DNA of 64,000 nt from Lyngbya confervoides BDU141951. GTDB taxonomy: Bacteria; Cyanobacteriota; Cyanobacteriia; Thermosynechococcales; Thermosynechococcaceae. The position numbers and the translations under genes were made by a program. Location of the stretch: contig NZ_JTHE03000106.1 in the NCBI RefSeq assembly GCF_000817775.3, positions 62,565-126,564 on the forward strand, written 5' to 3'. Position 1 is the first letter of the stretch. Each line of letters begins with the position of its first letter. Shown one piece after another: positions 1 through 14,258 of this stretch. The notes below the pieces were generated by a model. It was not told the DNA's origin, did not search any database, and was given only the letters and a program-made list of their open reading frames with translations.

Positions 1-176
1 TGCTGATGATCATGATCGTGCTCTGAATGATCATCCATGCCTCCAGTCATATCCCCCATGTCGTGGTCTGAATGATCGTGCTCTGAATGATCCTCGTCTG
101 TATCACAGAAACAGGTGTCATCATGCTGATGATCAGAATGATCGTGGTCTGAATGATCGTGGTCTGAATGATCCAT
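1..176 (-). other. His/Asp/Met-rich tail with DHS repeats
   Basis: From residue 2571 the tail is built from DHSDHDHSDH-type repeats, interrupted by a CFC motif and a Met-rich segment (MGDMTGGM), then more DHSEHDHDH. His/Asp/Met clusters of this kind bind Cu, Zn or Ni in other proteins. Placed after a copper oxidase domain, copper capture or loading is an attractive inference. The tail continues past the window edge. Confidence 0.85.
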
Positions 177-3100
177 GGGGGTCATATATTCTTGAGGAAT
201 CGTTGCACCGTTAGAGAGAAGCGTCGCCCATTCATTAATATCCACATCATAGGGTAGATACCAATTTGTCTCACCACCGTGACTGGAATGATCAAACAAG
301 GCTGCCTCACCATTTAGATCCCAGCCATGCATGTCACTGTAGCCATAGATGTACATATCCAGACCGCGACCAAAACGAGGGTTATACAAACTCAGATCCG
401 TATCGTTGTAAAGGGCTTGGGCTGTTTGAGCAATGCCGTAATCTACCAGACCCTCTTCGCAGAGACCCATCATTTTAATTTTGAAAGACTTGCCATCACG
501 GGACTTGAAGACTTTGTAGTTAATGGCCTCATCAAGACCAAAAATGTTGATGTCGCTGAAGGATCCTTCGATTGCATCTGCTTTTAAGAAGGTAAACACA
601 CCGTACTTTGGAGCAAAATCACCCAGAAAGTAAAAGTTGAGGGTGCCGTCTAACTTCGCAGTGCCATCCACTTTGAGAACGTCGTATTGGGTTTCTGGAT
701 TCCGTCCTGCTAATTCAATGGTCAGTTCACCATTAGCGGTTTGAGTATAGTCTCCCTGAATGTTGAGCAAACCCGGAGAATTACCAGGCGCTACTGTTCC
801 ATCATTGGTCAAGTCACCCGCAATAGTCCCACTACCATTCGTTACCCATGTCGTGCTTCCCGGCGATCGTACCAGTAGGTCTCGGAGATCTTCAGCAATA
901 GGAACCGCACCGTTATCCCACAGGAAAAGTGGATCATTCAAATTATGACCGTAATTTTGCCCACTAGCTGCGTAGAAACTAGTACCCCAATGGTCATCAA
1001 CCTGCCACTCAGCCCAGAGTCTGTCTACATTAGAGTGCAACATCCAGAAGATCGGATCGTTGGGAGAAGCTGATACGTTAGCCATGATGCCACCGATATA
1101 ACCATGGGCATTGTTATGGGCACCGGTACCGCGCTCGACGTTGTTGGCAAAAAGGTTAAAGGCATCCATTTGGAGCATATTTTCTATGCCTGGGCGCCAA
1201 GTGCCCGGATTGTTGACACGACTGCCTCGACCAATCCCCTCTGGAGTAGCATCCACACCTAGCCAACGACCATCACTCAAGTCATTTCGCATAGCCCAAC
1301 CATTGGCTAGGGCAAAGTAGCCCGTTTGGATGTCACCGTTGATAGTGGGATCTGACCCCATAAAGTTATCTTCCAGGACAATGTTGAGGGTTGAATTAAG
1401 ATCTGTCCAATCCCAGAACGGGAGGGAGACACTAGGGTTAACTGCTTGCAGGGCATTTTCATACTCCGCCAGTAGTAGACGGTGCCAGGCCATAAAGGCA
1501 GGACCGTTGTGGGCGGGGTTAACCATCGTGGTACCGTCGGGAGCCATCCGCCCGATCGCATCTCCGCTGGCTAAGTGAACCGCAACAAACTGATCGTAGA
1601 GACTAATTTCAATTCCATTGTTCGTCAGAATCGTGGTGTCTTTCAGGGTCAGTATGGCATTGATGTAGGCATCGATTTCCTCTGGAGTCATATCGGCAGC
1701 ATTCTTACGAACATCTAGCCCATCTTGGTTCGCGGCTGTGCTAGGAAGAACACTAAAGTCATTGAGGTAGCCGTAGTCGTAGGTGTAACCAAACTCAGTA
1801 AAGTCAAATACATCCGCAACGGTCATGAAGTCGTAGGTCAACGTAAAATCACGCAAGTTAACGACAGACTGATTTGTGAACCCTGCGGCGGCATTACCTT
1901 CTAAATCTTGCACAGCGGTTGCGCCGGGTGTATAGCTGACCGTAACAACGTCACCCAGCAGAATAGGATTGGCCATTCTTAAGATGACGTTTGTGCCTTT
2001 GGCATCGGTTCCGGGGAGGATATCGACAGAAGAGATGGTACGGGCTACGCCATTGACCAGTACGGTGTAGTCACTGGCACTGGGATCAGCCTCTCCATTC
2101 AAGCGCTCACTGTAAATCAACTTGACAGTGCTGTTGGTGGTTGTACCGCTGACGATCGCATTTACAAGGGTTGGAGTGCCTTCACCAGTTTCACCTGTAC
2201 CACTGCTGAGAGAACCGAAGACCATATCAACGGGGGCGGTGCCTGCAGCTAAGATCGTGAATGGGCTGAAACTTCCGGTGCCCGTTCCAGCAAGCACTGT
2301 CACTGTGTTGGAGTTAGCATCGGCGGACAGGATGTCAAGGTTGCCATCTCCGTTGATGTCTTGCAACACAATATCAAAGGGACTGTCGCCTAGGGCGAAG
2401 AAGGTGGCTGCACCGAATGTGCCATTGCCGTTGTTGAGCATGATGGAGACGTTATCGCTACCGCTGTTGCCCACTACGATGTCGGCAAAGCCATCATTGT
2501 TGACATCCCCTAGAGCAAGAGGACTAGAGGTATTGCTGCCTGTTGGATACTCAATCACGGCACCAAATCCACCGCTACCATTCCCAAGGGCCACGGAAAC
2601 ATTACGAGAGCTAGCGTTACTAACTACGAAGTCCAGAATATTGTCATTATTAACATCCTCTAGCACTAACCCTTCTGGGCGACTCCCTACAGCGTAAGTT
2701 CCGGAAGTAGCTGCAAAGTTTCCTTGGCCGTCACCCAAGTTAACCGTTACCGTTTCGCCTACAAAGTGTACGGTGATCAAATCAAGGTTGCTATCCCCAT
2801 TGAGGTCAGCGATGACCACTTCCCAAGGCCCGTCGCCTGTTGCAAGGGTGGTTTGGGGGTTAAAGCTACCGCTGGTATTACCGAGGAGGATGGAAACCGT
2901 GTCAGAACTGTTGTTCGCAACAATCGCATCAGGGATACCATCGCCGTTAATATCTTTGAGAACGATATGGGTAGGCTGGTTGCCAACGGCAAAGAGTTGG
3001 GGAGCCAGGAAACCGCCTGTGCCATCGTTAATCAGAAGAGCAATGTCACCGGAGCCTCGGTTAGCAACGACTACATCATTGAGACCATCGCCATTAATGT

Positions 3101-6100
3101 CAGCCATTGCTACGGCAAAGGGTTGGTTTCCACCTGTAGAGAAGGTGGTTTGAGTGCTAAATCCGCCTGCACCATCACTTTCAAATATGGAGATGGAGCT
3201 ATCAAAGCGGTTGGCAACGACTAAGCTATTTAAACCAGAACCCGAACCACCACCTGGGTTGCTGGGGGTAGTGGTGTTAGTGACGGTTTGGTTGGTAAGA
3301 GCGATCGCGTCATTGCCCGCTACGTCCTGGATTGGATTAGTCCCTGGTACCGCGTAGCTAATTACAACCGTCTCACCATTCACCACGGGGCTAGCTAGAT
3401 TTAGGGTTACTGCTGTACCGTTAGCGTCCACACTATTGACGGTGCGCTGAACCCCATTGACGGTCACGGTATAGGCACTACCAGCGGGGTCGGATGCCCC
3501 ATCTAAAGCTTCGTTATAGGTTAGGGTTAGGGTAGAGCCATTCACCGTAGCGGTCTGTAACACAGGGGGGGTGGTATCCGGGGCCGGACTGGTATTGGTG
3601 ACGGCTTGACCCGTGAAGGCGATCGCATCATTACCCACCGCATCTTGAATCGGATTAGTGCCCGGTACCACATAGCTAATAGCAACGGTCTCACCGCCTA
3701 CCACCGGACTAGCTAGGGTAAGGGTAACGGTTGTGCCATTAGCATTTGCGCTAGTTACCGTGCGTTGAGCGCCATTCACGGTTACGGTGTAGGCACCACC
3801 AGCGGGGTCGGACGCTCCATCTAAGGCTTCATTATAGGTCAGGGTCAAGGTAGACCCATTCACCACTGCACCCTGGAGAATAGGAGCAGTCGTATCAGGA
3901 ATAATGCTGGCAAAGGCTAAACCTGCTGGAGCGGCTGCGGTTGCCAGAGGGGTTTGAGGGGTAAAGCCTCCGTTGCCATTCCCCAGGAACGCGGCGACTT
4001 GATTGGCACTGGTGTTACTGGCAAGCAAATCTAAATTACCGTCATCATTGATGTCCCCTAGCAAGATATCCGTGGCGGTGATGCTAAGCTGGACGGGAGT
4101 TGCCCCACCAAATCCACCATTGCCGCTATTTAAGAGGATAGAGCTTTGGGTGCTACCTGCGTTAACGGTTACGATGTCTAGTGATCCATCGTTGTTAATA
4201 TCGCCTAAGGTTACGATGTTGGGCCGAGCCGCCGCACCATAATTGGTAACGGTGAAGCCCCCAGTACCATTCCCTAAACCAACGGAGACGTTACGGCTGC
4301 TGCGGTTGGCAACCACAAAGTCCATACGACCGTCACTATTGAGATCCCCAGTGACCATATCGACGGAGAGACTCCCCACCGTAGCAGTGGCAGTGGGGAC
4401 GCTGAAACCACCTACACCGTTGCCAAGGTTAACGCTGACATTGGCGGTATTCAGGTTGGCAGTAAACACATCAATGTTTCCATCGCCATTCAGATCAGCG
4501 GCACCGATGCCAACTGGGCCCGTTCCGGTGGCGAAGGTCTGAGCAGCGGCAAACCCACCTGTGCCATTGTTGAGCAGGACAGAGAAACTATTGGTTGCGT
4601 TGTGGAGGGCGAGGACATCTAAGCGACTATCTCGATTGACATCTGCTACATCTAACTGGGTAGGGGCTGCGCTGAGGGCAAAGGTTTGGGGGGTGTTAAA
4701 TCCACCGGCACCATTATTGATCAACAGGGAAATGTTATTGGAACTGCTGTTGGTGGTGAGCATATCCTCTAACCCATCACCGTTGATGTCGCCTAGGGTT
4801 ACGGTGGTGGGGCCAACTCCTCCCACGGCTAGGGTTGTCGGTGTGTAAAATCCACCCGAGCTATTGGTTGCATACAGGGAGACACTGTTTGCCCCCTGAT
4901 TAGCCACGATTAGGGTCGGTGAGCCTCCACCGGAAGGGGTGGGGAGGGTGGTGTTGGTCACGGTCTGAGCCGTGAGGGCGATCGCGTCATTTCCCGCTAA
5001 GTCTTGAACCGGGTTCGTGCCGGGAACGGTGTAACTCACGGCGACCGTATCCCCTGCTGCCACTGCACTGGCGAGGGTAAGGATAACGGTAGTGCCGTTG
5101 GCATCTACGCCATTGACCGTCCGCTGTGTCCCATTAACCACCACACTGTAGGCTCCCGTAGCAGGATCCGATGCGCCATCCAGGACTTCGTTGTAGGTCA
5201 AGACAAGACTGGTGCCATTGACAATCGCCGTTTGCAATATGGGGGCGGTTGTATCTGCGGGGGGTAGGGTGATGTTGGTAACGGTTTGAGCCGTGAGGGC
5301 GATCGCATCGTTCCCAGCCACATCTTGAACCGGGTTCGTCGCAGGCGGGGTATAGCTCAACGCTACTGTCTCACCTGCTGCCACCGCACTGGCTAGGGTC
5401 AGAGTTACCGTTATGCCATTGGCATCCACACTATTGACTACTCGGGCAACCCCATTCACTATCACGGCATATGCCCCACCGGCTGGGTCAGACGCTCCAT
5501 CTAATACTTCGTTATACGTTAATGTCACAACGCTGCCATTCACCACCGCGCTTTGGAACACTGGAGGCGTTGTATCTGCAGGAGGAACCGTGGTATTGGT
5601 CACCGATTGGGTCGTGAGGGCGATCGCGTCATTCCCCGCTACATCTTGAACCGGATTTGTTGCAGGCGGGGTATAGCTCAACACCACTGTCTCACCTGCT
5701 GCCACCGCATTGGCTAGCGTCAGGGTCACCGTTGTACCATTGGCATCCACACTGTCGACCGCTCGGGCTATCCCATTCACCGTCACTGCATATGCCCCAG
5801 CGGCTGGGTCAGACGCTCCATCTAATGCTTCGTTGTACGTTAATGTCACAACGCTGCCATTCACCACCGCACTTTGGAACACTGGAGGCGTTGTATCCGC
5901 AGGAGGAGCCGTCGTATTGGTCACCGTTCGGTTTGTGAGGGCGATCGCATCGTTTCCAGCCACATCTTGAACCGGGTTCGTCGCAGGAGGAGTATAGCTT
6001 AACGCCACGGTCTCACCTGCTGCCACCGCACTGGCTAGCGTCAGGGTCACCGTTGTACCATTGGCATCCACACTATCGACCGCTCGGGCTATCCCATTCA

Positions 6101-7886
6101 CCGTCACTGCATATGCCCCACCGGCTGGGTCAGACCCTCCATCTAAGGATTCATTATAAGTTAGGGTCAGAGTGGAACCATTCACCACAGCACCCTGTAG
6201 TACTGGAGCCGTAGTATCAGGAACAATGCTGGCAAACGCCAGACCTGCAGGAGCAACTGCGGTTGTCAAAGGTGGCTGAGCCGCAAAGCCTCCACTGCCA
6301 TTACCCAGAAGAACAGCAATCTGGTTAACAGCGGTGGCGCTTGCCAGTAAATCCAGGTTGCCATCATCATTGACATCCCCAAAAGCGATATCAGTAGCCG
6401 TGGAGCCAATCTCAATGGGGGTCGGCCCACCAAATCCTCCATTCCCGTTGTTCAGCAAGATGGAGCCTTGAGTGCTGCTTGTGTTAGCGGTCGCAATATC
6501 TAGCGCTCCATCATTATTGACATCGCCCAAGATCACTACATTTGGACGAGCCCCTGCCCCATAGTTCGTAACGGTGAAGCCGCCTGTGCCGTTTCCTAGA
6601 CCCACAGAAACATTACGACTGCTCCGGTTGGCAACCACAAAGTCCATGCGACCGTCGCCATTGAGATCCCCTGTGGTCATATCGACCGGAAGACTTCCAA
6701 CGGTAGAAGTGGCAGTGGCTGCGCCGAAACTACCCGCACCATTCCCAAGGTTAACGGTCACATTGGTGGTATTGAGGTTGGCGGTAAAAACATCAATGTT
6801 TCCATCTCCGTTCACATCAGCGACACCAATGCCCACCGGGCCAGTTCCAGTTGCAAAGTTTTGAGCAGCGGCAAACCCACCAGTGCCATTGTTAAGCAGG
6901 ACGGAGAAGTTATTTGTCGCGTTTTTGAGGGCTAAGACATCTAATCGACCATCTCTATTGACATCAGCCACCGCCAACTGTGTGGGAGCAGCACCGACGG
7001 CAAAGGTTTGGGGTGTATTAAACCCGCCAACACCATTATTGGTAAACAGGGAAATGTTGCTAGACCCTACGTTGGTGGTGAGAATATCCTCCAGTCCATC
7101 ACCGTTGATGTCCCCCAAGGTGACCGTCGATGGCCCTGTGCCAGATACAGCCAGAGTCGTCGGAGAAGTAAAGCCGCCACTACCATTGGGGGCTTGTAAT
7201 GAAATGCTATTGGATGTTTGGTTGGCTACAATTAAGGATGCAAGAAGTCCATCATATTCTTCTAATAACGTAGAAGAGGTCCATGATAAGGTCTCAATGT
7301 GGACATCTCCACTCAGATACTCAAGTTCCCAATCCCCTCCTAATGTAGTCGAACCGGTCAAGTCAGTCGAAGCAGCTATATCAGCCCCAGTCAACTCTGC
7401 AAACCGATCAACAAATTTTTTACCTAGGGCATCTTGTGCAAGATCACATGCATAAATTAAAATATCAGCGTCACTGCCTAAGTAACGAGACCATCCAGAA
7501 ATTTCATCTCGATATAATTCCAAGCTTTTACTATCTAAGACAGATGCCCCTAACTGGAGCAAGCTATTATCACCATGCGAAAGTATGGTAATGCTTGAAA
7601 CCAAATAATCCCTGTTTTCCAAGAGGTTCGATATCTGTCTTAAGCCATCAAGACTTGCGTCCAGGACCAATACTTCTGTAGTATCCGCTTTAGGCTCACG
7701 AAGAAAATGCTGGTAATCATCAATTGAAGAATCAACAACTAGAAGATTGTAGCTGGGCAATAGGTTTTCGTGATAAAAAGAAGAGTTGGCGATAAGTGAA
7801 AATCCCCGCTGAGCTTCAAATATAGCTATTTCAGAGGAGATATCGACAAATCCAACTTGACCGTAATCCACCGAGTCACTGTTCAT
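1..7886 (-). CDS. Giant DUF4347-VCBS-SwmB surface protein with tyrosinase domain (partial)
   Basis: The frame is open from ATG 7886 to the window edge, giving at least 2628 residues; the C-terminus lies outside. Domain order: DUF4347 (about residues 48-200), VCBS/FG-GAP block (221-559), four SwmB domains (563-983), second VCBS block (989-1333), two SwmB (1333-1540), third VCBS block (1553-1903), one SwmB (1913-2003), a tyrosinase domain (about 2063-2319), a beta-helix-like stretch containing VAPGNSPG, then a His/Asp-rich tail. VCBS repeats carry DxNxDGxxD calcium loops. I see no signal peptide; DUF4347 giants are usually thought to be exported by a type I-like route, which is inference here. 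Tyrosinases oxidise phenols to quinones, so a role in surface cross-linking, pigment formation or copper handling is possible but unproven. No frameshift was found in the parts I translated. Confidence 0.9.
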   Translation of the reverse strand, partial: MNSDSVDYGQVGFVDISSEIAIFEAQRGFSLIANSSFYHENLLPSYNLLVVDSSIDDYQHFLREPKADTTEVLVLDASLDGLRQISNLLENRDYLVSSITILSHGDNSLLQLGASVLDSKSLELYRDEISGWSRYLGSDADILIYACDLAQDALGKKFVDRFAELTGADIAASTDLTGSTTLGGDWELEYLSGDVHIETLSWTSSTLLEEYDGLLASLIVANQTSNSISLQAPNGSGGFTSPTTLAVSGTGPSTVTLGDINGDGLEDILTTNVGSSNISLFTNNGVGGFNTPQTFAVGAAPTQLAVADVNRDGRLDVLALKNATNNFSVLLNNGTGGFAAAQNFATGTGPVGIGVADVNGDGNIDVFTANLNTTNVTVNLGNGAGSFGAATATSTVGSLPVDMTTGDLNGDGRMDFVVANRSSRNVSVGLGNGTGGFTVTNYGAGARPNVVILGDVNNDGALDIATANTSSTQGSILLNNGNGGFGGPTPIEIGSTATDIAFGDVNDDGNLDLLASATAVNQIAVLLGNGSGGFAAQPPLTTAVAPAGLAFASIVPDTTAPVLQGAVVNGSTLTLTYNESLDGGSDPAGGAYAVTVNGIARAVDSVDANGTTVTLTLASAVAAGETVALSYTPPATNPVQDVAGNDAIALTNRTVTNTTAPPADTTPPVFQSAVVNGSVVTLTYNEALDGASDPAAGAYAVTVNGIARAVDSVDANGTTVTLTLANAVAAGETVVLSYTPPATNPVQDVAGNDAIALTTQSVTNTTVPPADTTPPVFQSAVVNGSVVTLTYNEVLDGASDPAGGAYAVIVNGVARVVNSVDANGITVTLTLASAVAAGETVALSYTPPATNPVQDVAGNDAIALTAQTVTNITLPPADTTAPILQTAIVNGTSLVLTYNEVLDGASDPATGAYSVVVNGTQRTVNGVDANGTTVILTLASAVAAGDTVAVSYTVPGTNPVQDLAGNDAIALTAQTVTNTTLPTPSGGGSPTLIVANQGANSVSLYATNSSGGFYTPTTLAVGGVGPTTVTLGDINGDGLEDMLTTNSSSNNISLLINNGAGGFNTPQTFALSAAPTQLDVADVNRDSRLDVLALHNATNSFSVLLNNGTGGFAAAQTFATGTGPVGIGAADLNGDGNIDVFTANLNTANVSVNLGNGVGGFSVPTATATVGSLSVDMVTGDLNSDGRMDFVVANRSSRNVSVGLGNGTGGFTVTNYGAAARPNIVTLGDINNDGSLDIVTVNAGSTQSSILLNSGNGGFGGATPVQLSITATDILLGDINDDGNLDLLASNTSANQVAAFLGNGNGGFTPQTPLATAAAPAGLAFASIIPDTTAPILQGAVVNGSTLTLTYNEALDGASDPAGGAYTVTVNGAQRTVTSANANGTTVTLTLASPVVGGETVAISYVVPGTNPIQDAVGNDAIAFTGQAVTNTSPAPDTTPPVLQTATVNGSTLTLTYNEALDGASDPAGSAYTVTVNGVQRTVNSVDANGTAVTLNLASPVVNGETVVISYAVPGTNPIQDVAGNDAIALTNQTVTNTTTPSNPGGGSGSGLNSLVVANRFDSSISIFESDGAGGFSTQTTFSTGGNQPFAVAMADINGDGLNDVVVANRGSGDIALLINDGTGGFLAPQLFAVGNQPTHIVLKDINGDGIPDAIVANNSSDTVSILLGNTSGSFNPQTTLATGDGPWEVVIADLNGDSNLDLITVHFVGETVTVNLGDGQGNFAATSGTYAVGSRPEGLVLEDVNNDNILDFVVSNASSRNVSVALGNGSGGFGAVIEYPTGSNTSSPLALGDVNNDGFADIVVGNSGSDNVSIMLNNGNGTFGAATFFALGDSPFDIVLQDINGDGNLDILSADANSNTVTVLAGTGTGSFSPFTILAAGTAPVDMVFGSLSSGTGETGEGTPTLVNAIVSGTTTNSTVKLIYSERLNGEADPSASDYTVLVNGVARTISSVDILPGTDAKGTNVILRMANPILLGDVVTVSYTPGATAVQDLEGNAAAGFTNQSVVNLRDFTLTYDFMTVADVFDFTEFGYTYDYGYLNDFSVLPSTAANQDGLDVRKNAADMTPEEIDAYINAILTLKDTTILTNNGIEISLYDQFVAVHLASGDAIGRMAPDGTTMVNPAHNGPAFMAWHRLLLAEYENALQAVNPSVSLPFWDWTDLNSTLNIVLEDNFMGSDPTINGDIQTGYFALANGWAMRNDLSDGRWLGVDATPEGIGRGSRVNNPGTWRPGIENMLQMDAFNLFANNVERGTGAHNNAHGYIGGIMANVSASPNDPIFWMLHSNVDRLWAEWQVDDHWGTSFYAASGQNYGHNLNDPLFLWDNGAVPIAEDLRDLLVRSPGSTTWVTNGSGTIAGDLTNDGTVAPGNSPGLLNIQGDYTQTANGELTIELAGRNPETQYDVLKVDGTAKLDGTLNFYFLGDFAPKYGVFTFLKADAIEGSFSDINIFGLDEAINYKVFKSRDGKSFKIKMMGLCEEGLVDYGIAQTAQALYNDTDLSLYNPRFGRGLDMYIYGYSDMHGWDLNGEAALFDHSSHGGETNWYLPYDVDINEWATLLSNGATIPQEYMTPMDHSDHDHSDHDHSDHQHDDTCFCDTDEDHSEHDHSDHDMGDMTGGMDDHSEHDHDHQ
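930..1700 (-). other. Type-3 copper (tyrosinase/hemocyanin) domain of the giant protein
   Basis: Both PROSITE tyrosinase signatures are met. CuA: H-x4-F-M-x-W-H-R-x2-L-x3-E, read as HNGPAFMAWHRLLLAEYE, with histidines at residues 2104, 2126 and 2135. CuB: HNNAH (H2257, H2261) followed by DPIFWMLHSNVD with H2284. PFWDWTD, usual between CuA and CuB, is present. All six copper ligands are intact, so an active di-copper site is expected. Monophenolase, catechol oxidase or a purely structural role cannot be told apart from sequence. Confidence 0.93.
1880..7225 (-). repeat. Alternating VCBS/FG-GAP blocks and SwmB repeats
   Basis: Three VCBS blocks (about 7225-6210, 4920-3890 and 3230-2180) are each followed on the coding strand by SwmB domains in a 4-2-1 pattern (about 6205-4950, 3890-3270 and 2160-1880). 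The first two VCBS blocks are clearly homologous at DNA level, and the three SwmB copies between 5290 and 6200 are close to identical over long stretches. Six of the seven SwmB copies carry GCGATCGC in the codons for DAIA in the GNDAIAL motif. This points to recent internal duplication. Confidence 0.85.
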
Positions 7887-8425
7887 TTGTTACTACCAGA
7901 GAACATGATAGCTAGTCATCAATAACTGTTCGTAGAACTTCTAAACTTAAAACACACATAAATTATCTTCTCTAAATATTTAGCACGGTTCTATCGACAT
8001 AACAAACATGAAAATGTCATGACTTTACTGCAGTTTTTCTCTTGCATTCCGTAGGTGTAGTCTAGCTTGACATATTAGTTTACAAAAAATATCGCCAGTA
8101 AAGTATAGGTGCTTAAAATCGGAGATACTTGAGAATCACACAAGAGATGTAAAAAGTGAAGGTTAATAGGTGTTCTCAGAGAGGTAGATCGTGTCAATAG
8201 GCTGCAAAGACTTTCAGGAATTCAAGTTTAAGATGATTCGCACTTCTAAGGCTGAAAGCTTTTCCATACCAGGGGTTTAAGCATTTCGAGTAAAACACCT
8301 CTCAGCAATCCCGATAGAGCCAAAGTAAATCATAAAATTCAGTGGATCAGGCACAAATTAGCAAGGTTAAAGACCTAGGTTTTAAAAAGGTCAACTAGAC
8401 TAATTAAAGGAAAAAGTCAGGTTTT
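7887..8425. other. AT-rich intergenic spacer
   Basis: About 540 bases separate the Wzc-like gene from the giant gene; both lie on the minus strand. I found no coding frame or strong hairpin. A weak A5/T5 stem around 8410-8426 follows the Wzc-like stop. The promoter of the giant gene should lie here, but I cannot place it with confidence. Confidence 0.5.
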
Positions 8426-10720
8426 TTATCTTACTTGAAAATTAGATCCTATTCTTTCCCAATTACCAGTCTTTGTTGACTGATGCCCTTCTGCATATAA
8501 GCTATAAACTTGTTGAGATGAATTCTTCACATCGTTTGCAACCACACCTAGTACTTTTCGTGAAAGAGAGGCTAGTCTTTTATCAAGGTATTTGAAGTCA
8601 GATAAAGGAGTATATCCGAGACGAGTTACGAGTAAAATTCCATCACAATTTGAGGAGAGCAAGAGTGGATCGGCAAAAAGGAGAGGTGAAGAATCGTAAA
8701 TTATGAGATCAAACGAATTTTTAATCTCATTCATTATTGTTGACATTCTATTCGAGCCTAGCAAACCTGCTGGATCAGTAGGAATTAGCCCAGAGGAGAG
8801 AAAGTATAAGTTAGGGTAGTCATCATACTCTGAAATCAAATCTGATAAAGTAGCTTGTTCGCTTACAAGTTCACTCAAACCAGGAGGACAAAATTCAGGA
8901 ACACTCTTGTCAGAAAGTGAGGTAGGCTCTTTTCTTAAATCAGCATCAACAAGTAAGACACGACAGCCCATGGCTGCTGCTGCTTCTGCCAAATGTAAAG
9001 ATACCGTCGTTTTACCTTCTTCAGCAATTAATGATGTTACTACAATTGACTGAATGTGTTCATCAGGCTTGGCTAATCGTATTTGAGAGTAACATGACCT
9101 AAATATTTCATTCAAGGCACGCAAGTAATTATAGCTAAGGCTTTCCATTGGAGAATTTTTTGCTGTGTCGAAAAAGCGAAGCAAACTATAAGATAATTCT
9201 TCAACATAAGGGACACTCGCTAATATAGGCCACTTACTGAGTGAAGTTAATGTGTTGAGATTAAATACAACTCCATAAAATCGATCTACTATTAGAGACA
9301 AACCGATGCCAAAAATAACTCCAAGAAGAGATCCAAGAATAAGTCTTTGAATTAAACTTGAAGAGCTTGCTTCGTATACAGCAACAGGCGCAACAATCTT
9401 CCAAGGAATCTCTTCGCGAGATAAACTAAGCATTAAATTCTCACGGATCTTGAGAAATCGATTGAGTTGTTCGTTAGACAAATCCAACTGTCTTTGTACA
9501 GTCTGATATTGACGGGTTAACTGAGGGAGCTGAGAAAATAATGTTCGTAAGCGTCTTTGTTCATCTAAAAGACCTTCTTGACGAGTTCTAAGAGCTTTAA
9601 CCTCAAGCTCAGTCTCTACTATTTTTTGGCTTAGTCCCTTCCTTAAGCTGTTTTGGTATGGAACATCATTATTACTGATATCAACTTGAGAATTAAGCTT
9701 AGAACCTAGATTCGATTGAGCGACTCGGTTTAAAATATCATTGAGTTCTGAGATATTTCTTCTAACCTCGATGAGTTTTGGGTGATCATCAGTGAGTTGC
9801 TGACTCAGCGTTTTATACTGAATTTCTAATTCTAGCAATTCGTTTATCACCTTTTGATACTCAGGAGAATCGCTTAAAACAGATCCCGCTTCTGCTGTAA
9901 AAGAATTGTTATCAGTACGCACAAGCAAAGACTCAAGGAGTTTCTGAGACTCAAGTAAATTAATTGTATTTTCATTTATGCTTTGCTCGATTTGATTCAG
10001 ACGGGTTGTTATTGATTTCACAGATTCATCAGGGTCAAAAATAATATTTTTTTCCCGAAAAATTTGCAAATCTCTTTCAAGATTTTGAACTTTCAACTCG
10101 ACCTTTGGCATCTGAGAATCTAGAAACTCAATGGAGCTAGTATAATACTCACGACGTTGGTCATAACTATAATTGAGGTATGCTTGCGCTGTTTCTGAGA
10201 GAACCTTACTGACGAGCTCAGGATCTGATGATTGATATTTTATTTCGAAAACATCTGTAGCGGTCCTCCCCACACTCTTTTGACTCACCACCATATTACT
10301 TACTATTTGATTTAGCTTAATGCTTGGAAAATCAGGCTTAACATTTTCGTATATGGGCTCAAAAAATAATGGACTTTGTAAGAGCTGAAGTAGAGTTGAC
10401 TCGTCTATACTTGAGTCTTTAGACGTATCAAGCGTTTCCTGTGGAACCGCTTGATTAGAGTCACTAGACAATGCAGAAGCAATACTACTTTCTGGGCTAC
10501 TAGACTTCACCAAGATTTCAAACTTTCCTTCATAAATTGATGGTTTTGTAAAATTAAATAGAAGTGCTGAAAATGAAACAAGAGCAGCACAGGATATAAT
10601 AATTGGAGATCGTCTTTTAAGAGTGTCTAGTATAGGAAGAACATTAACATACTTTTCCTCATCTTGAATACTTTTTGTTACTTCAATGTGACTTGAGACA
10701 ATACCTGAGTTACTACTCAT
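8426..10720 (-). CDS. Wzc/CpsD-type exopolysaccharide tyrosine autokinase
   Basis: An inner-membrane co-polymerase and BY-kinase that controls chain length and export of capsular or exopolysaccharide. The N-terminus is a Wzz domain with a membrane segment, followed by a long periplasmic coiled-coil region rich in Leu/Gln/Glu, a second membrane segment before the kinase, and a CpsD-type ATPase. The kinase shows Walker A EEGKTT (about residue 571), Walker A' LLVDADLR and Walker B LIIYDSS. The C-terminal Tyr cluster is meagre (VYSLY). I chose ATG 10720 (764 aa), which has GAGAGAG upstream; an in-frame TTG at 10753 would add 11 residues. It sits 45 bp downstream of the degenerate EAL gene and is probably co-transcribed with it. 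No glycosyltransferases are in view, so the pathway partners lie elsewhere. The gene is AT-rich compared with most of the window. Confidence 0.9.
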   Translation of the reverse strand: MSSNSGIVSSHIEVTKSIQDEEKYVNVLPILDTLKRRSPIIISCAALVSFSALLFNFTKPSIYEGKFEILVKSSSPESSIASALSSDSNQAVPQETLDTSKDSSIDESTLLQLLQSPLFFEPIYENVKPDFPSIKLNQIVSNMVVSQKSVGRTATDVFEIKYQSSDPELVSKVLSETAQAYLNYSYDQRREYYTSSIEFLDSQMPKVELKVQNLERDLQIFREKNIIFDPDESVKSITTRLNQIEQSINENTINLLESQKLLESLLVRTDNNSFTAEAGSVLSDSPEYQKVINELLELEIQYKTLSQQLTDDHPKLIEVRRNISELNDILNRVAQSNLGSKLNSQVDISNNDVPYQNSLRKGLSQKIVETELEVKALRTRQEGLLDEQRRLRTLFSQLPQLTRQYQTVQRQLDLSNEQLNRFLKIRENLMLSLSREEIPWKIVAPVAVYEASSSSLIQRLILGSLLGVIFGIGLSLIVDRFYGVVFNLNTLTSLSKWPILASVPYVEELSYSLLRFFDTAKNSPMESLSYNYLRALNEIFRSCYSQIRLAKPDEHIQSIVVTSLIAEEGKTTVSLHLAEAAAAMGCRVLLVDADLRKEPTSLSDKSVPEFCPPGLSELVSEQATLSDLISEYDDYPNLYFLSSGLIPTDPAGLLGSNRMSTIMNEIKNSFDLIIYDSSPLLFADPLLLSSNCDGILLVTRLGYTPLSDFKYLDKRLASLSRKVLGVVANDVKNSSQQVYSLYAEGHQSTKTGNWERIGSNFQVR

Positions 10721-10765
10721 ATATACGTTTATCTCTCTCAATTTTGTGATCAAAAATACATTGAC

Positions 10766-12016
10766 TCATGATTGTTTCTTCAGATCTCGTCGACGAGCAA
10801 ACCAGTTAGCAGCAAGAACATCAGACATCTCTGATTCACTCAACGGCGGATCGATTAAAGTCCCTCGAAACAAATTACAGCCTAACGATTGAAGTAATTT
10901 TAGTTCTTGAAGATGCTCTATACCCGTACACAAGAAATCAATATTATAGAGTCTGGTCAGCTGAATAATATTCTTCAAATTATTAGTTATTTTATTATCA
11001 CTATTATTCGTAAAACAATTAAATCTTTTTACATTTAAAGAAATAATTTTTATGCACCTATTTTCCAAAATTTCAAGAAAATTATCTTCATTAAAACGTA
11101 ATATTTCTAATTCTAGATTGAAAGCAACATCATATATAGATGTATCTACACCATGATATTTTCGTTGCATGTCAAAGTTAGAAAGAAGTTGAACATCAAA
11201 ATATTTTAGTCTTAGGTTATTTACATTTTGATAAGATCTAATAGTCTTGAAAAAATCAATGTCTAGAATATCTGGATTTATAAAAGATAAGTCTAAGGTT
11301 ATATACAACGGAGCATATCCTAGTCGATGCCAACTATTGAGTTTTTCTATAACTTTCCTAACCAATATAAATTTATGATTTTTTAGATCAAGTTGAGCTT
11401 TCGGATGATCTCTATTTCGATCAACGGGAAAAAGCTTATTGTAGCAACACGCATGGACACCAACAATATTTTTCGTATCTACATCCAAGATGGATTCATA
11501 TTTAAGGGTTGGGAGTTTGTGTTCTTGCAACTGTAACCCGTCTACACTCGCATGAGGTAGGGATATCTCATAAGGGCCTAATTCATTTTCATTATATTGA
11601 TCAGGTAGCTTGTTTATATTTACTCTATTTAGACCTTGAGAAATTCTCATCCTCCTTATAGCATTATAATTAATAATATTACTTTGATTTTGTTTAGACC
11701 TATCAAGTAAAACTCGGGATTCTTCTAAATCTATCCTCTGAAAATCATTTTTTTTTATGTTTTGAAAAGTGGTTGTATCAGCATTTCTACTAATAATAGA
11801 AAGAGCATGTTTACTCGCTGCCTCAATATATTTAATACTTAAACTATGATCTATATCAACAATTACTGTTTGGCCAACATTATATTTCTTAAAAGATGAA
11901 GGGTAATCACACATGCTGGTTAAAATATGGTCGCCTTCTAGACAAGAAACAATTTTGATCTGCTTCGCTCTTACTAAAGATCCTTTCTTAAGACATATTA
12001 TTCCAAGATGTAACAT
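10766..12016 (-). CDS. Degenerate EAL-domain protein
   Basis: 416 residues. The C-terminal 250 residues follow the EAL fold: a KYESILDVDTKNIVGVHA segment where EAL would be, LYITLDLSF matching the second strand, CTGIEH in place of AEGVE, and GCNLFRGTLIDPPL in place of GCDxxQGYLxSxPL. The EAL triplet is lost, the DDFG motif is not recognisable, and the Q of QGY is R, so phosphodiesterase activity is unlikely. It could bind c-di-GMP or act through protein contacts. The N-terminal 150 residues match nothing I know. It lies directly upstream of the Wzc-like kinase, which suggests c-di-GMP-linked control of exopolysaccharide. Assignment rests on motif spacing only. Confidence 0.65.
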   Translation of the reverse strand: MLHLGIICLKKGSLVRAKQIKIVSCLEGDHILTSMCDYPSSFKKYNVGQTVIVDIDHSLSIKYIEAASKHALSIISRNADTTTFQNIKKNDFQRIDLEESRVLLDRSKQNQSNIINYNAIRRMRISQGLNRVNINKLPDQYNENELGPYEISLPHASVDGLQLQEHKLPTLKYESILDVDTKNIVGVHACCYNKLFPVDRNRDHPKAQLDLKNHKFILVRKVIEKLNSWHRLGYAPLYITLDLSFINPDILDIDFFKTIRSYQNVNNLRLKYFDVQLLSNFDMQRKYHGVDTSIYDVAFNLELEILRFNEDNFLEILENRCIKIISLNVKRFNCFTNNSDNKITNNLKNIIQLTRLYNIDFLCTGIEHLQELKLLQSLGCNLFRGTLIDPPLSESEMSDVLAANWFARRRDLKKQS

Positions 12017-12071
12017 TTTAGAACTAGCTGCATACTAACAAATATTTTTAGAGTTTAATGATCATCAGCAT

Positions 12072-12212
12072 TCACTGATTTATTGACTTAAGTCTAATAA
12101 TTAGATCAGAAATTATCACATCGTTATACTGAGTAATCTCCTCTAACCATTCTTGAATTGCTGTCCAATATTCCAAGTCATTCTCTAAAGAAAAGTCGAT
12201 TATATTTCTCAT
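12072..12212 (-). CDS. Small acidic ORF, 46 aa
   Basis: ATG at 12212 is preceded by TAGGA at suitable spacing, and the frame runs 46 codons to TGA. The peptide (begins MRNIIDFSLENDLEYW) is acidic, Ile/Leu/Trp-rich and predicted helical. It lies between the NB-ARC gene and the degenerate EAL gene on the same strand, so it may be part of that transcription unit. I do not recognise the family. Coding status rests on the ribosome site, the plausible composition and the position. Confidence 0.4.
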   Translation of the reverse strand: MRNIIDFSLENDLEYWTAIQEWLEEITQYNDVIISDLIIRLKSINQ

Positions 12213-12342
12213 AATTCCTAAATTTTCTTACACTTATAAATATGGCATGACAATATTAAAAATCAAAGGCTACTGGCTATAGACAACTTATCATAATACG
12301 AATAAAAGTAATTTGTGCAACTACATTTTTTGTAAAAACAGT

Positions 12343-13749
12343 TTAGAAAACCTTGAGATCAATCAAGTTCCCTGCTCTCATTCTTTGAATAATGTATTCC
12401 TTTAAAATGTTTGGCAAGCGAATTAATCCACTCGAATTATAAAGCAGACATTTATTAAATAAAGAGTTTACTGCGCTTAAGATAACATTCTCGAATCCAA
12501 TCAACCAAAACGAGTTTGCAATCTCTTCAATACTGATAGGGCTTTCATATGGAATAAGCCCTATCAGTATTCTTTTTTCCTGTGTACTCAACCTAGTGTA
12601 TTGCTGTTCTAATCGGCGGGAAATGTTTCCAAACATGTACTCATTTTTACTCAGAAATATATCCGTTCGACCGCTAAAATCTTTTTGTATTACACTACAA
12701 GCTTGCGCTATCGAATAAAGATTGCCACTGTACACTTCTACTAGTTTGTTAATTTGTTCCTTTGAGAAGTACTTACTAAATCCAGTTTCTTCAAGGAATA
12801 ATTCTGCGAGCTCTACATCAACGCCTCTAAGAACATACGATTTAACATAAAACTCGTTATTACTTAAAAATACTCCTGGTGGAATTTCCGTACTAAGGAC
12901 GACTATTTTACTTTTGTGTGGATTTTCAGTGATATGCCTCAAGAACTTTCCATACCAGTGAAAACTTTCTTTGTAGTTTGTGTTTAAATTTGAAGTAAAT
13001 AAAGTTAACTCCCAATCATCAATGACTATAAGATGTTTATTTTCTGTAATCAAATCTATAAATGTAATAAATTTTTCCTCTATGGATCTTTCAACATCAT
13101 TTGTTTTTCCTGTCAACTGAAGGACGAGACTGTCAACAAAATCCTCAAAACTCGATACATTTCTTATCGATATTACTACTTTAGCATCAAAATTTTCCAT
13201 TACAGACTTTAAAACTTGCCTAATTATAGTAGTTTTTCCAGACCCAGGCATACCAAATACTCCAAGAAGTTGGCATTTGGAAAGCATGAGATCTTCGGTG
13301 ATTTGCTTAAATTCATACGGATGTAAAACTATTGACGATTTTACACGTTCACAAAGAAAAGATATTCTTTTCTTTGTGATTGGCTGGTATTTAATATCTT
13401 TTTGGACTTCTTTTTCTCCACGGCGTATTGAGTCTGATTGGGGTGATTGAAATAGTATTTTATTAATAACGGAGTTTATGTTGTTTTTATTTATGCTTTC
13501 ACCTGTTATCTTAGATAATTCCTTCCATACTTTGTGACCTACGTCTCTAAGATAATGAGCATCATAACAAGTGATTGCGGACATCTCTTTATATGTTTTC
13601 CCATTCCATGATTCAATAAAAATTCGGGATTGAATATTACTTAGACGAATTTTAGAATATTTCTGTTGTAGAAGAAATAATGCTTTTTCTCCACTTTTTA
13701 TGTAATACTTCTCTTGTTCAAAAAAGTCATTACTGTTTGCTATCTGCAT
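12343..13749 (-). CDS. HTH-NB-ARC STAND-type ATPase
   Basis: 468 residues. Residues about 22-100 match the N-terminal helix-turn-helix found on many cyanobacterial NB-ARC proteins (the vWA-MoxR-associated HTH type: SWNGKTYKEM, LRDVGHKVWKELS). The NTPase follows with Walker A GMPGSGKTT (166-174) and Walker B LIVIDDWE (240-247), then a winged-helix-like end. There is no WD40, TPR or effector domain after the ATPase, so it is short for the family. STAND ATPases act as ligand-triggered switches in transcription control, cell death or phage defence; the HTH favours regulation. It lies in the AT-rich island. A defence role would be a guess. Confidence 0.8.
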   Translation of the reverse strand: MQIANSNDFFEQEKYYIKSGEKALFLLQQKYSKIRLSNIQSRIFIESWNGKTYKEMSAITCYDAHYLRDVGHKVWKELSKITGESINKNNINSVINKILFQSPQSDSIRRGEKEVQKDIKYQPITKKRISFLCERVKSSIVLHPYEFKQITEDLMLSKCQLLGVFGMPGSGKTTIIRQVLKSVMENFDAKVVISIRNVSSFEDFVDSLVLQLTGKTNDVERSIEEKFITFIDLITENKHLIVIDDWELTLFTSNLNTNYKESFHWYGKFLRHITENPHKSKIVVLSTEIPPGVFLSNNEFYVKSYVLRGVDVELAELFLEETGFSKYFSKEQINKLVEVYSGNLYSIAQACSVIQKDFSGRTDIFLSKNEYMFGNISRRLEQQYTRLSTQEKRILIGLIPYESPISIEEIANSFWLIGFENVILSAVNSLFNKCLLYNSSGLIRLPNILKEYIIQRMRAGNLIDLKVF

Positions 13750-14258
13750 GATTTCTTAATTACTATTCAATTAGTTAAATATGAACTGATAAGCTATTTA
13801 GCAATCCGACTTGAATTGTGAGAGAGGTTAGTTCTGAAAGCCTTGCCAGGATTGATCCTCTTTCTCATGTTTCGAAAAGGATTGCTATTGAGAGCTTGAC
13901 CTACAAGCTCTCAATAGCTTATCTCAATTGAATTATTTAAGCAGTGGTAATTTCACGTATCTAGGCAATATCTTGGTTTACATTGCCTCCCCCCCCGGTT
14001 AAACTGCTCTCTCCCTATCTCTTTGGGAGAAATCTTAACTAACACTTTCGTTTTTTACTTTCACCGGATAATTTAACACTTTTACAATGGCGCGCCTACC
14101 CTTCAAGTGTCATGATAATCGCTTTGCACCTACAGCTTTTGCTTGATTTAGTCATTTTTAGCGCGCTGTGTACTTCATTTTTTGCATCCTGGAGATAGTA
14201 ACCATATGGCTACATACCTTTTTTGATTCCTTTCGCTGGGAAAATACCTTCTCTTCGT
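13750..14258. other. Intergenic region with C-tract and hairpin
   Basis: About 510 bases without a convincing gene, marking the right edge of the AT-rich island. It contains a perfect 15-bp inverted repeat (separate entry), a C-run near 13988-13996 and a direct transition to GC-rich sequence near 14.25 kb. A short ATG frame near 14205 stops after six codons. Confidence 0.5.
13884..13918. repeat. Perfect 15-bp inverted repeat
   Basis: GCTATTGAGAGCTTG (13884-13898) is the exact reverse complement of 13904-13918, with the 5-nt loop ACCTA. No clear T-run follows on either strand, so a standard terminator is not certain. It lies between the STAND gene promoter region and the 3' end of the DUF92 gene. 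Confidence 0.85.

Follow-up and report, generated by a model that had tools for sequence, protein, structure and literature searches.

A circularly permuted tyrosinase fused to a giant DUF4347/SwmB-type scaffold beside a sulfated-polysaccharide gene cluster in Lyngbya confervoides

What is a tyrosinase doing near the end of a giant protein built largely of repeats, and on what might it act there? The question is raised by a gene at the left end of a 64,000-nucleotide stretch of Lyngbya confervoides BDU141951 DNA (contig NZ_JTHE03000106.1, positions 62,565 to 126,564; hereafter the window, meaning the whole stretch). This gene, the giant gene, is a single uninterrupted minus-strand frame that runs from 7886 to beyond base 1 (2628 residues within the window) and ends in the same contig, ~420 bases past the window edge, giving a protein of 2767 residues including 34 X. 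The original prediction had proposed a tyrosinase embedded in a giant protein of DUF4347, repeat and SwmB modules and had left the gene to be extended past the edge; the complete frame and its Pfam and NCBIfam domains bear this out. Beyond that prediction, we found a circular permutation of the tyrosinase, saw the tyrosinases (TyrP) of scytonemin clusters within the largest group of its cyanobacterial relatives, and identified as its partner a conserved enzyme with adenylation, ketoreductase, thiolation and thioesterase domains (A-KR-T-TE). Our preferred reading, to which we give a probability of roughly 45%, is that the giant protein is exported as a phenoloxidase whose target is a phenolic constituent of a sulfated sheath, and that it is fed by the adjacent phenolic-acid pathway.

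A tyrosinase with its last strand first

The Pfam Tyrosinase domain (PF00264) spans residues 2096-2295 of the giant protein. The six copper-binding histidines, which the original prediction had read from the sequence, are invariant across a 34-sequence alignment, as is the glutamate preceding HisB1, and an asparagine follows HisB1 (HisB1+1). The glutamate and asparagine positions are tied to monophenolase activity, i.e. to activation of the phenol. An AlphaFold2 (AF2) model of the domain matched tyrosinase structures in Foldseek at TMt ~0.7, and up to 0.74 against the Bacillus megaterium enzyme. The type-3 copper family match, the six histidines and the predicted fold are thus all present, and the canonical strand order is not; because family membership is judged by the core, we file the domain, on sequence grounds, as a permuted tyrosinase, i.e. 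a topological variant of the family.

The strand in question is carried by a 'DVLxxRxLGYTYD' segment that lies ~75-85 residues after CuB in ordinary cyanobacterial tyrosinases, and by a 'DVxDF..xGYxYD' strand that is C-terminal in scytonemin-type TyrP relatives and in hemocyanin units. In six proteins, namely the giant protein, both copies from the genome D1_MAG_00067 (D1 MAG), one from Acaryochloris sp. IP29b_bin.137 and two from Microcoleus vaginatus WJT46-NPBG5, this segment precedes the VRKN stretch with which the core begins; the motif is N-terminal only in this clade and was not found C-terminally there. Searches with a profile derived from 56 ordinary C-terminal tails matched the N-terminal segments of the two Microcoleus proteins (E = 8e-9 and 1e-8), the giant protein (2e-4), the Acaryochloris protein (1e-3) and the partial D1 MAG copy (0.02), and matched none of the permuted proteins' C-terminal segments. 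Among the unpermuted controls, one segment reached the same score as the partial D1 MAG copy (10.8 bits), so that single-sequence scores call for caution in the weaker members. When the whole permuted set was compared with ordinary tails, profile against profile, the probability was 97.2 (E = 2.8e-11), versus 1.0 for a C-terminal control region. In addition, phmmer placed the first 33 residues of the giant-protein domain weakly but consistently on the hemocyanin-unit strand that follows CuB. In AF2 models of the giant-protein domain and of a Microcoleus protein the segment has a confidence (pLDDT) of ~80-98 and forms short strands at YTY/YRY and DVR/QVR; as these strands were read from DSSP assignments, pairing of the relocated strand is put forward as probable.

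Could the permutation be only apparent, i.e. a chance resemblance or an extra strand in place of the relocated canonical one? The modest score of the giant protein itself, the tie between the partial D1 MAG copy and the control, and the reading of pairing from DSSP would all allow this. They are outweighed by the family-level profile match, the strong single matches of both Microcoleus proteins (~1e-8), the absence of the motif C-terminally and two confident models, and we consider a chance resemblance or an extra strand very improbable. We conclude that the tyrosinase is naturally circularly permuted, with its usual last strand preceding the core.

A tree of the core, from which the strand segment had been removed, placed the six permuted proteins in one group (support 100/99) and the four fused proteins in a subgroup within it (100/99). 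The two Microcoleus proteins are small and stand alone, with an apparent signal peptide (seen by eye) and a sub-threshold PEP-CTERM match, and the fusion therefore need not have arisen together with the permutation. Their genes are in tandem (locus L022, 7737-9110 and 9776-11200), and the proteins have PEP-CTERM-like ends and a conserved Cys/His/Met-rich 'PCDMPCHQSEH' segment. A natural clade in which some members stand alone and others sit on giant scaffolds would demonstrate that permutation of the type-3 copper fold is tolerated in evolution, and would be ready starting material for enzyme design.

The fusion to a giant scaffold is rare, and was found in three genomes. D1 MAG carries a complete 1595-residue gene in one contig, with DUF4347, FG-GAP, SWM, permuted tyrosinase and His-rich tail in that order, and a second copy whose contig begins inside the SWM repeats (L020/L131); the Acaryochloris homologue (L021/L132) is cut at a contig end. 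The original prediction had asked whether a stop or an assembly join separates scaffold from tyrosinase: the intervening stretch of the giant gene contains 0 stops and 0 N, and the complete D1 MAG gene has its parts in the same sequence within a single contig, so that a join is rejected. The 100-N scaffold gap in this contig adjoins window base 1 on its left and falls inside the His/Asp/Met-rich tail, where it is the source of the 34 X. Nor did we find a common, long-described family: PF00264 matches occur in 14 of 386 cyanobacterial genomes, with a giant frame only in the window's genome; a 390-genome search of the class found the permuted fusion only in this genome, Acaryochloris and D1 MAG; and among the papers searched none joined DUF4347 with a cyanobacterial tyrosinase. 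Plasmid-borne transfer was also considered and is not supported, as PLSDB held no close match (all <60% identity). Two other kinds of extended tyrosinase were seen: an 851-residue protein with RTX calcium-binding repeats in Argonema antarcticum (L091, 9761-12313), an independent extracellular fusion, and two proteins of 740-781 residues with C-terminal extensions bearing 'ANPDL' repeats, both from one 2.8 Mb genome (L015, L019).

A conserved partner enzyme in a polysaccharide cluster

Downstream of the giant gene, on the same strand, are the A-KR-T-TE gene (1768 residues), a chorismate mutase/prephenate dehydrogenase (TyrA), a Wzx-type flippase, two sulfotransferases and an acyltransferase, followed by glycosyltransferases, a further sulfotransferase and a polymerase (these last assigned by eye from translations). 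Together with the Wzc-like kinase upstream, the flippase, sulfotransferases and glycosyltransferases mark a sulfated-polysaccharide (capsule or sheath) cluster. The flippase and two sulfotransferases are also present at the Acaryochloris locus. A DevBCA-like HlyD/ABC exporter set, a DegT-type aminotransferase and a GMC-type oxidoreductase were also read by eye near that cluster (L133, 4138-7248).

The A-KR-T-TE gene follows the giant tyrosinase gene in all three genomes, with an identity of 51% over 1553 residues in Acaryochloris and 53% over the part present in D1 MAG; of 29 genomes in the order, the same two carry both fusion and partner. The enzyme is closest to StsA, a synthetase that selects keto acids, with which it aligns over A-KR-T (PDB 6ULW, E = 1.1e-241). 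Its A domain bears the marks of keto-acid selection: it has Ile and Gly-Met where StsA has its keto-acid residues, and it lacks both the Asp that would bind an amino group and a Pro in motif A5. From the pocket and the tyrA context we predict specificity for an aryl keto acid. The TyrA neighbour matches NF008400 above cut-off, is itself a second copy in this genome, and is predicted to make 4-hydroxyphenylpyruvate.

In the proposed mechanism, the DUF4347 head, FG-GAP and SwmB-type repeats would form the long extracellular scaffold of an exported protein, and the metal-binding tail may load copper into the permuted tyrosinase. TyrA (in the window's genome) would make 4-hydroxyphenylpyruvate; A-KR-T-TE would activate this or a similar aryl keto acid, reduce it to a hydroxyphenyllactyl thioester, and then release or transfer the hydroxyphenyllactyl unit, supplying the exported sulfated polysaccharide. 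Outside the cell the tyrosinase could oxidise the phenol to a catechol or quinone, cross-linking or colouring the sheath. The fully specified version, in which TyrA and A-KR-T-TE, as a dedicated shikimate-derived keto-acid route, put hydroxyphenyllactate on the sulfated polysaccharide and the scaffold-borne permuted tyrosinase cross-links it, we regard as doubtful. If true, it would be an extracellular system not described before, comparable in bacteria to quinone tanning. With its conserved linkage to a keto-acid enzyme within a polysaccharide cluster, the gene makes a phenolic, cross-linked sheath, reached by a route distinct from scytonemin, a testable proposal.

Several observations weigh against a secreted phenoloxidase fed by this pathway. 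The giant protein has neither a signal peptide nor a recognised RTX C-terminus, and its export route is conjectural; a HlyB-type exporter encoded in the genome might serve it. TyrA is not at the Acaryochloris locus, and T-protein TyrA was not found in the other two fusion genomes, which gave only weak dehydrogenase matches, so that 4-hydroxyphenylpyruvate as substrate is specific to the evidence from the window's genome. The aryl keto acid specificity is a prediction, and the glycosyltransferase labels are readings by eye. The stand-alone Microcoleus enzymes have no comparable polysaccharide or A-KR-T-TE neighbours. Finally, both the Acaryochloris gene and the second D1 MAG copy are truncated by the ends of their contigs, so that a DUF4347 head is only putative in each. 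In D1 MAG, a frame with two tandem DUF4347 domains, FG-GAP and SWM repeats (L129, 6221-9205) runs off its contig and may be the head of the second copy. A Microcoleus T-protein-type TyrA (L154, 12476-13573) beside a DUF4347 giant (L155, 568-10551) was judged coincidental; that giant is RTX-rich and has no tyrosinase.

What the enzyme may act on

The target of the tyrosinase might be a small phenolic compound released from the cell, such as a sunscreen or pigment, in which case the scaffold would only keep the enzyme in the sheath while the product builds up there. Ordinary relatives sit in scytonemin clusters with tyrA and trp genes (PMC2726228), e.g. in Nostoc (L033), where one lies between trpA and trpB downstream of tyrA, aroB, trpE and trpC, the gene order published for tyrP (NpR1263; PMC2726228). 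TyrP has been proposed to act in scytonemin formation, and a coupling between scytonemin synthesis and exopolysaccharide is noted for Nostoc commune (PMC2726228). In 17 loci a tyrA homologue is found at a distance of 6-9 kb from the tyrosinase, and A-KR-T-TE, having its own thioesterase, could release a free product. Against these points, no trp or scy genes were seen among the examined neighbours of the giant gene, where tyrA alone is nearby, and the flippase, sulfotransferases and glycosyltransferases fit a polymer better. We consider a small-metabolite role rather unlikely, and reject membership of the scytonemin TyrP group itself, since the context lacks trp and scy and the permuted clade is separate in the tree (100/99).

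Two further roles would leave the polysaccharide aside. If copper capture were the main one, the tail and the type-3 site would bind surface copper with little phenol oxidation; the tail is rich in D, H and M with CxC motifs, and in the D1 MAG paralogues the tails are His-rich, with CxCK...CGKPK repeats. The catalytic ligands are all retained, however, as are the Glu and Asn positions, and the partner genes point to a pathway for phenols, not to copper transport, which makes this improbable; of the copper handling raised by the original prediction, the tail leaves room for copper loading. Tyrosinases are also able to oxidise protein tyrosines, and the enzyme could oxidise tyrosines or exogenous phenols so as to harden its own adhesin-like protein or attack competitors, but the conserved A-KR-T-TE partner would then be left unexplained and we think such self-sclerotisation or defence more improbable still. 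The preferred reading, a phenoloxidase of the sulfated sheath, keeps the core of the surface phenol oxidase first suggested for this gene: it fits the sulfated-polysaccharide cluster with its predicted phenolic-acid genes, while display and cross-linking would still have to be assumed.

Layout of the locus and comparison with known systems

The features are listed in Table 1. The E values were 1.3e-128 for FG-GAP_3, 4.2e-39 for FG-GAP, 3.4e-124 for seven SWM_repeat matches and 1.2e-68 for swm_rep_I (TIGR02059), and DUF4347 and the swm repeats above cut-off place it by domain content among the DUF4347/SwmB-type giants. It is the sole PF00264 and the sole DUF4347 match in its genome. The arrays originally described as calcium-binding VCBS modules score as FG-GAP_3, and calcium binding is suggested by their DxNxDGxxD loops. 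The VAPGNSPG segment is common to both D1 MAG copies and the Acaryochloris protein and has no Pfam match.

Table 1. Positions in the window of the giant gene, its parts and its upstream neighbour
Feature	Position	Strand	Residues and basis
Giant fusion gene	3..7886	minus	ATG at 7886; runs on left of window to stop ~62147 on contig
DUF4347	7242..7745	minus	48-215; Pfam PF14252, E 4.5e-46
FG-GAP array 1	6219..7238	minus	217-556; PF13517/PF01839
SwmB-type repeats 1-4	4923..6218	minus	557-988; PF13753, TIGR02059; DNA period 321 at 5240-6146
FG-GAP array 2	3897..4919	minus	990-1330; Pfam
SwmB-type repeats 5-6	3249..3896	minus	1331-1546; Pfam, NCBIfam
FG-GAP array 3	2199..3233	minus	1552-1896; Pfam
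SwmB-type repeat 7	1851..2180	minus	1903-2012; Pfam, NCBIfam
Permuted strand segment with DVFDFTEFGYTYD	1755..1850	minus	2013-2044; equivalent to C-terminal strand of ordinary tyrosinases
Tyrosinase core	858..1724	minus	2055-2343; PF00264, E 6.8e-35; fold search
CuA ligands	1482..1577	minus	H2104 (1575-1577), H2126 (1509-1511), H2135 (1482-1484)
E2251 with CuB ligands	1035..1136	minus	H2257 (1116-1118), H2261 (1104-1106), H2284 (1035-1037)
E2251, waterkeeper-Glu position	1134-1136	minus	alignment
Beta-rich segment with VAPGNSPG motif, C-terminal of tyrosinase	456..833	minus	2352-2477
Conserved linker	174..455	minus	2478-2571; alignment
Start of His/Asp/Met/Cys-rich repeat tail	3..173	minus	continues past window across 100-N gap
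Wzc-like polysaccharide tyrosine autokinase (upstream)	8426..10753	minus	TIGR01007 above cut-off; PF02706 Wzz

The DUF4347 domain retains a conserved SHG...C pair like that of caspase-like peptidases and may be such a protease; among solved structures no relative turned up, even with E values as high as 1. Further upstream lie a degenerate EAL-domain protein (10766-12016) and an NB-ARC protein (12343-13749), and G+C is ~0.28-0.39 at 7887-14000 versus 0.51 in the giant gene and 0.52-0.58 in the rest of the window.

Each part of the system resembles something known. SwmB and other cyanobacterial DUF4347/SWM giants share the TIGR02059 repeats and the DUF4347 head, a resemblance that runs through family profiles and not through SwmB itself; the giant protein differs in adding a tyrosinase. 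The partner enzyme aligns with StsA (6ULW) over A-KR-T and keeps the keto-acid marker residues of StsA and the McyG A domain (4R0M), but unlike them it has a terminal thioesterase and is a separate enzyme next to a tyrosinase. TyrP (NpR1263; Nostoc and relatives) is also a PF00264 protein, ~31-36% identical over the domain, and is also linked to a T-protein-type tyrA (PMC2726228); it is small (400-490 residues), has the ordinary strand order and lies amid trp and aro genes, with neither scaffold nor A-KR-T-TE. The Bacillus/Priestia megaterium and Streptomyces tyrosinases (4P6R, 8HPI, 1WX2) have the same fold and the same six copper ligands, but are stand-alone and of ordinary strand order, whereas the giant-gene domain is permuted and fused. 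Molluscan hemocyanin functional units (6R83, 3J32) are likewise type-3 copper domains in a giant chain, with a recognisable equivalent strand; they are oxygen carriers and have it C-terminally, whereas the giant tyrosinase has it N-terminally. Our literature search found no naturally permuted tyrosinase; the circular permutant of a bacterial tyrosinase by Lee et al. 2019 (doi 10.1002/bit.26795), as cited in PMC8466947 (reference 27), was made in the laboratory, whereas the clade of the giant gene is permuted by nature.

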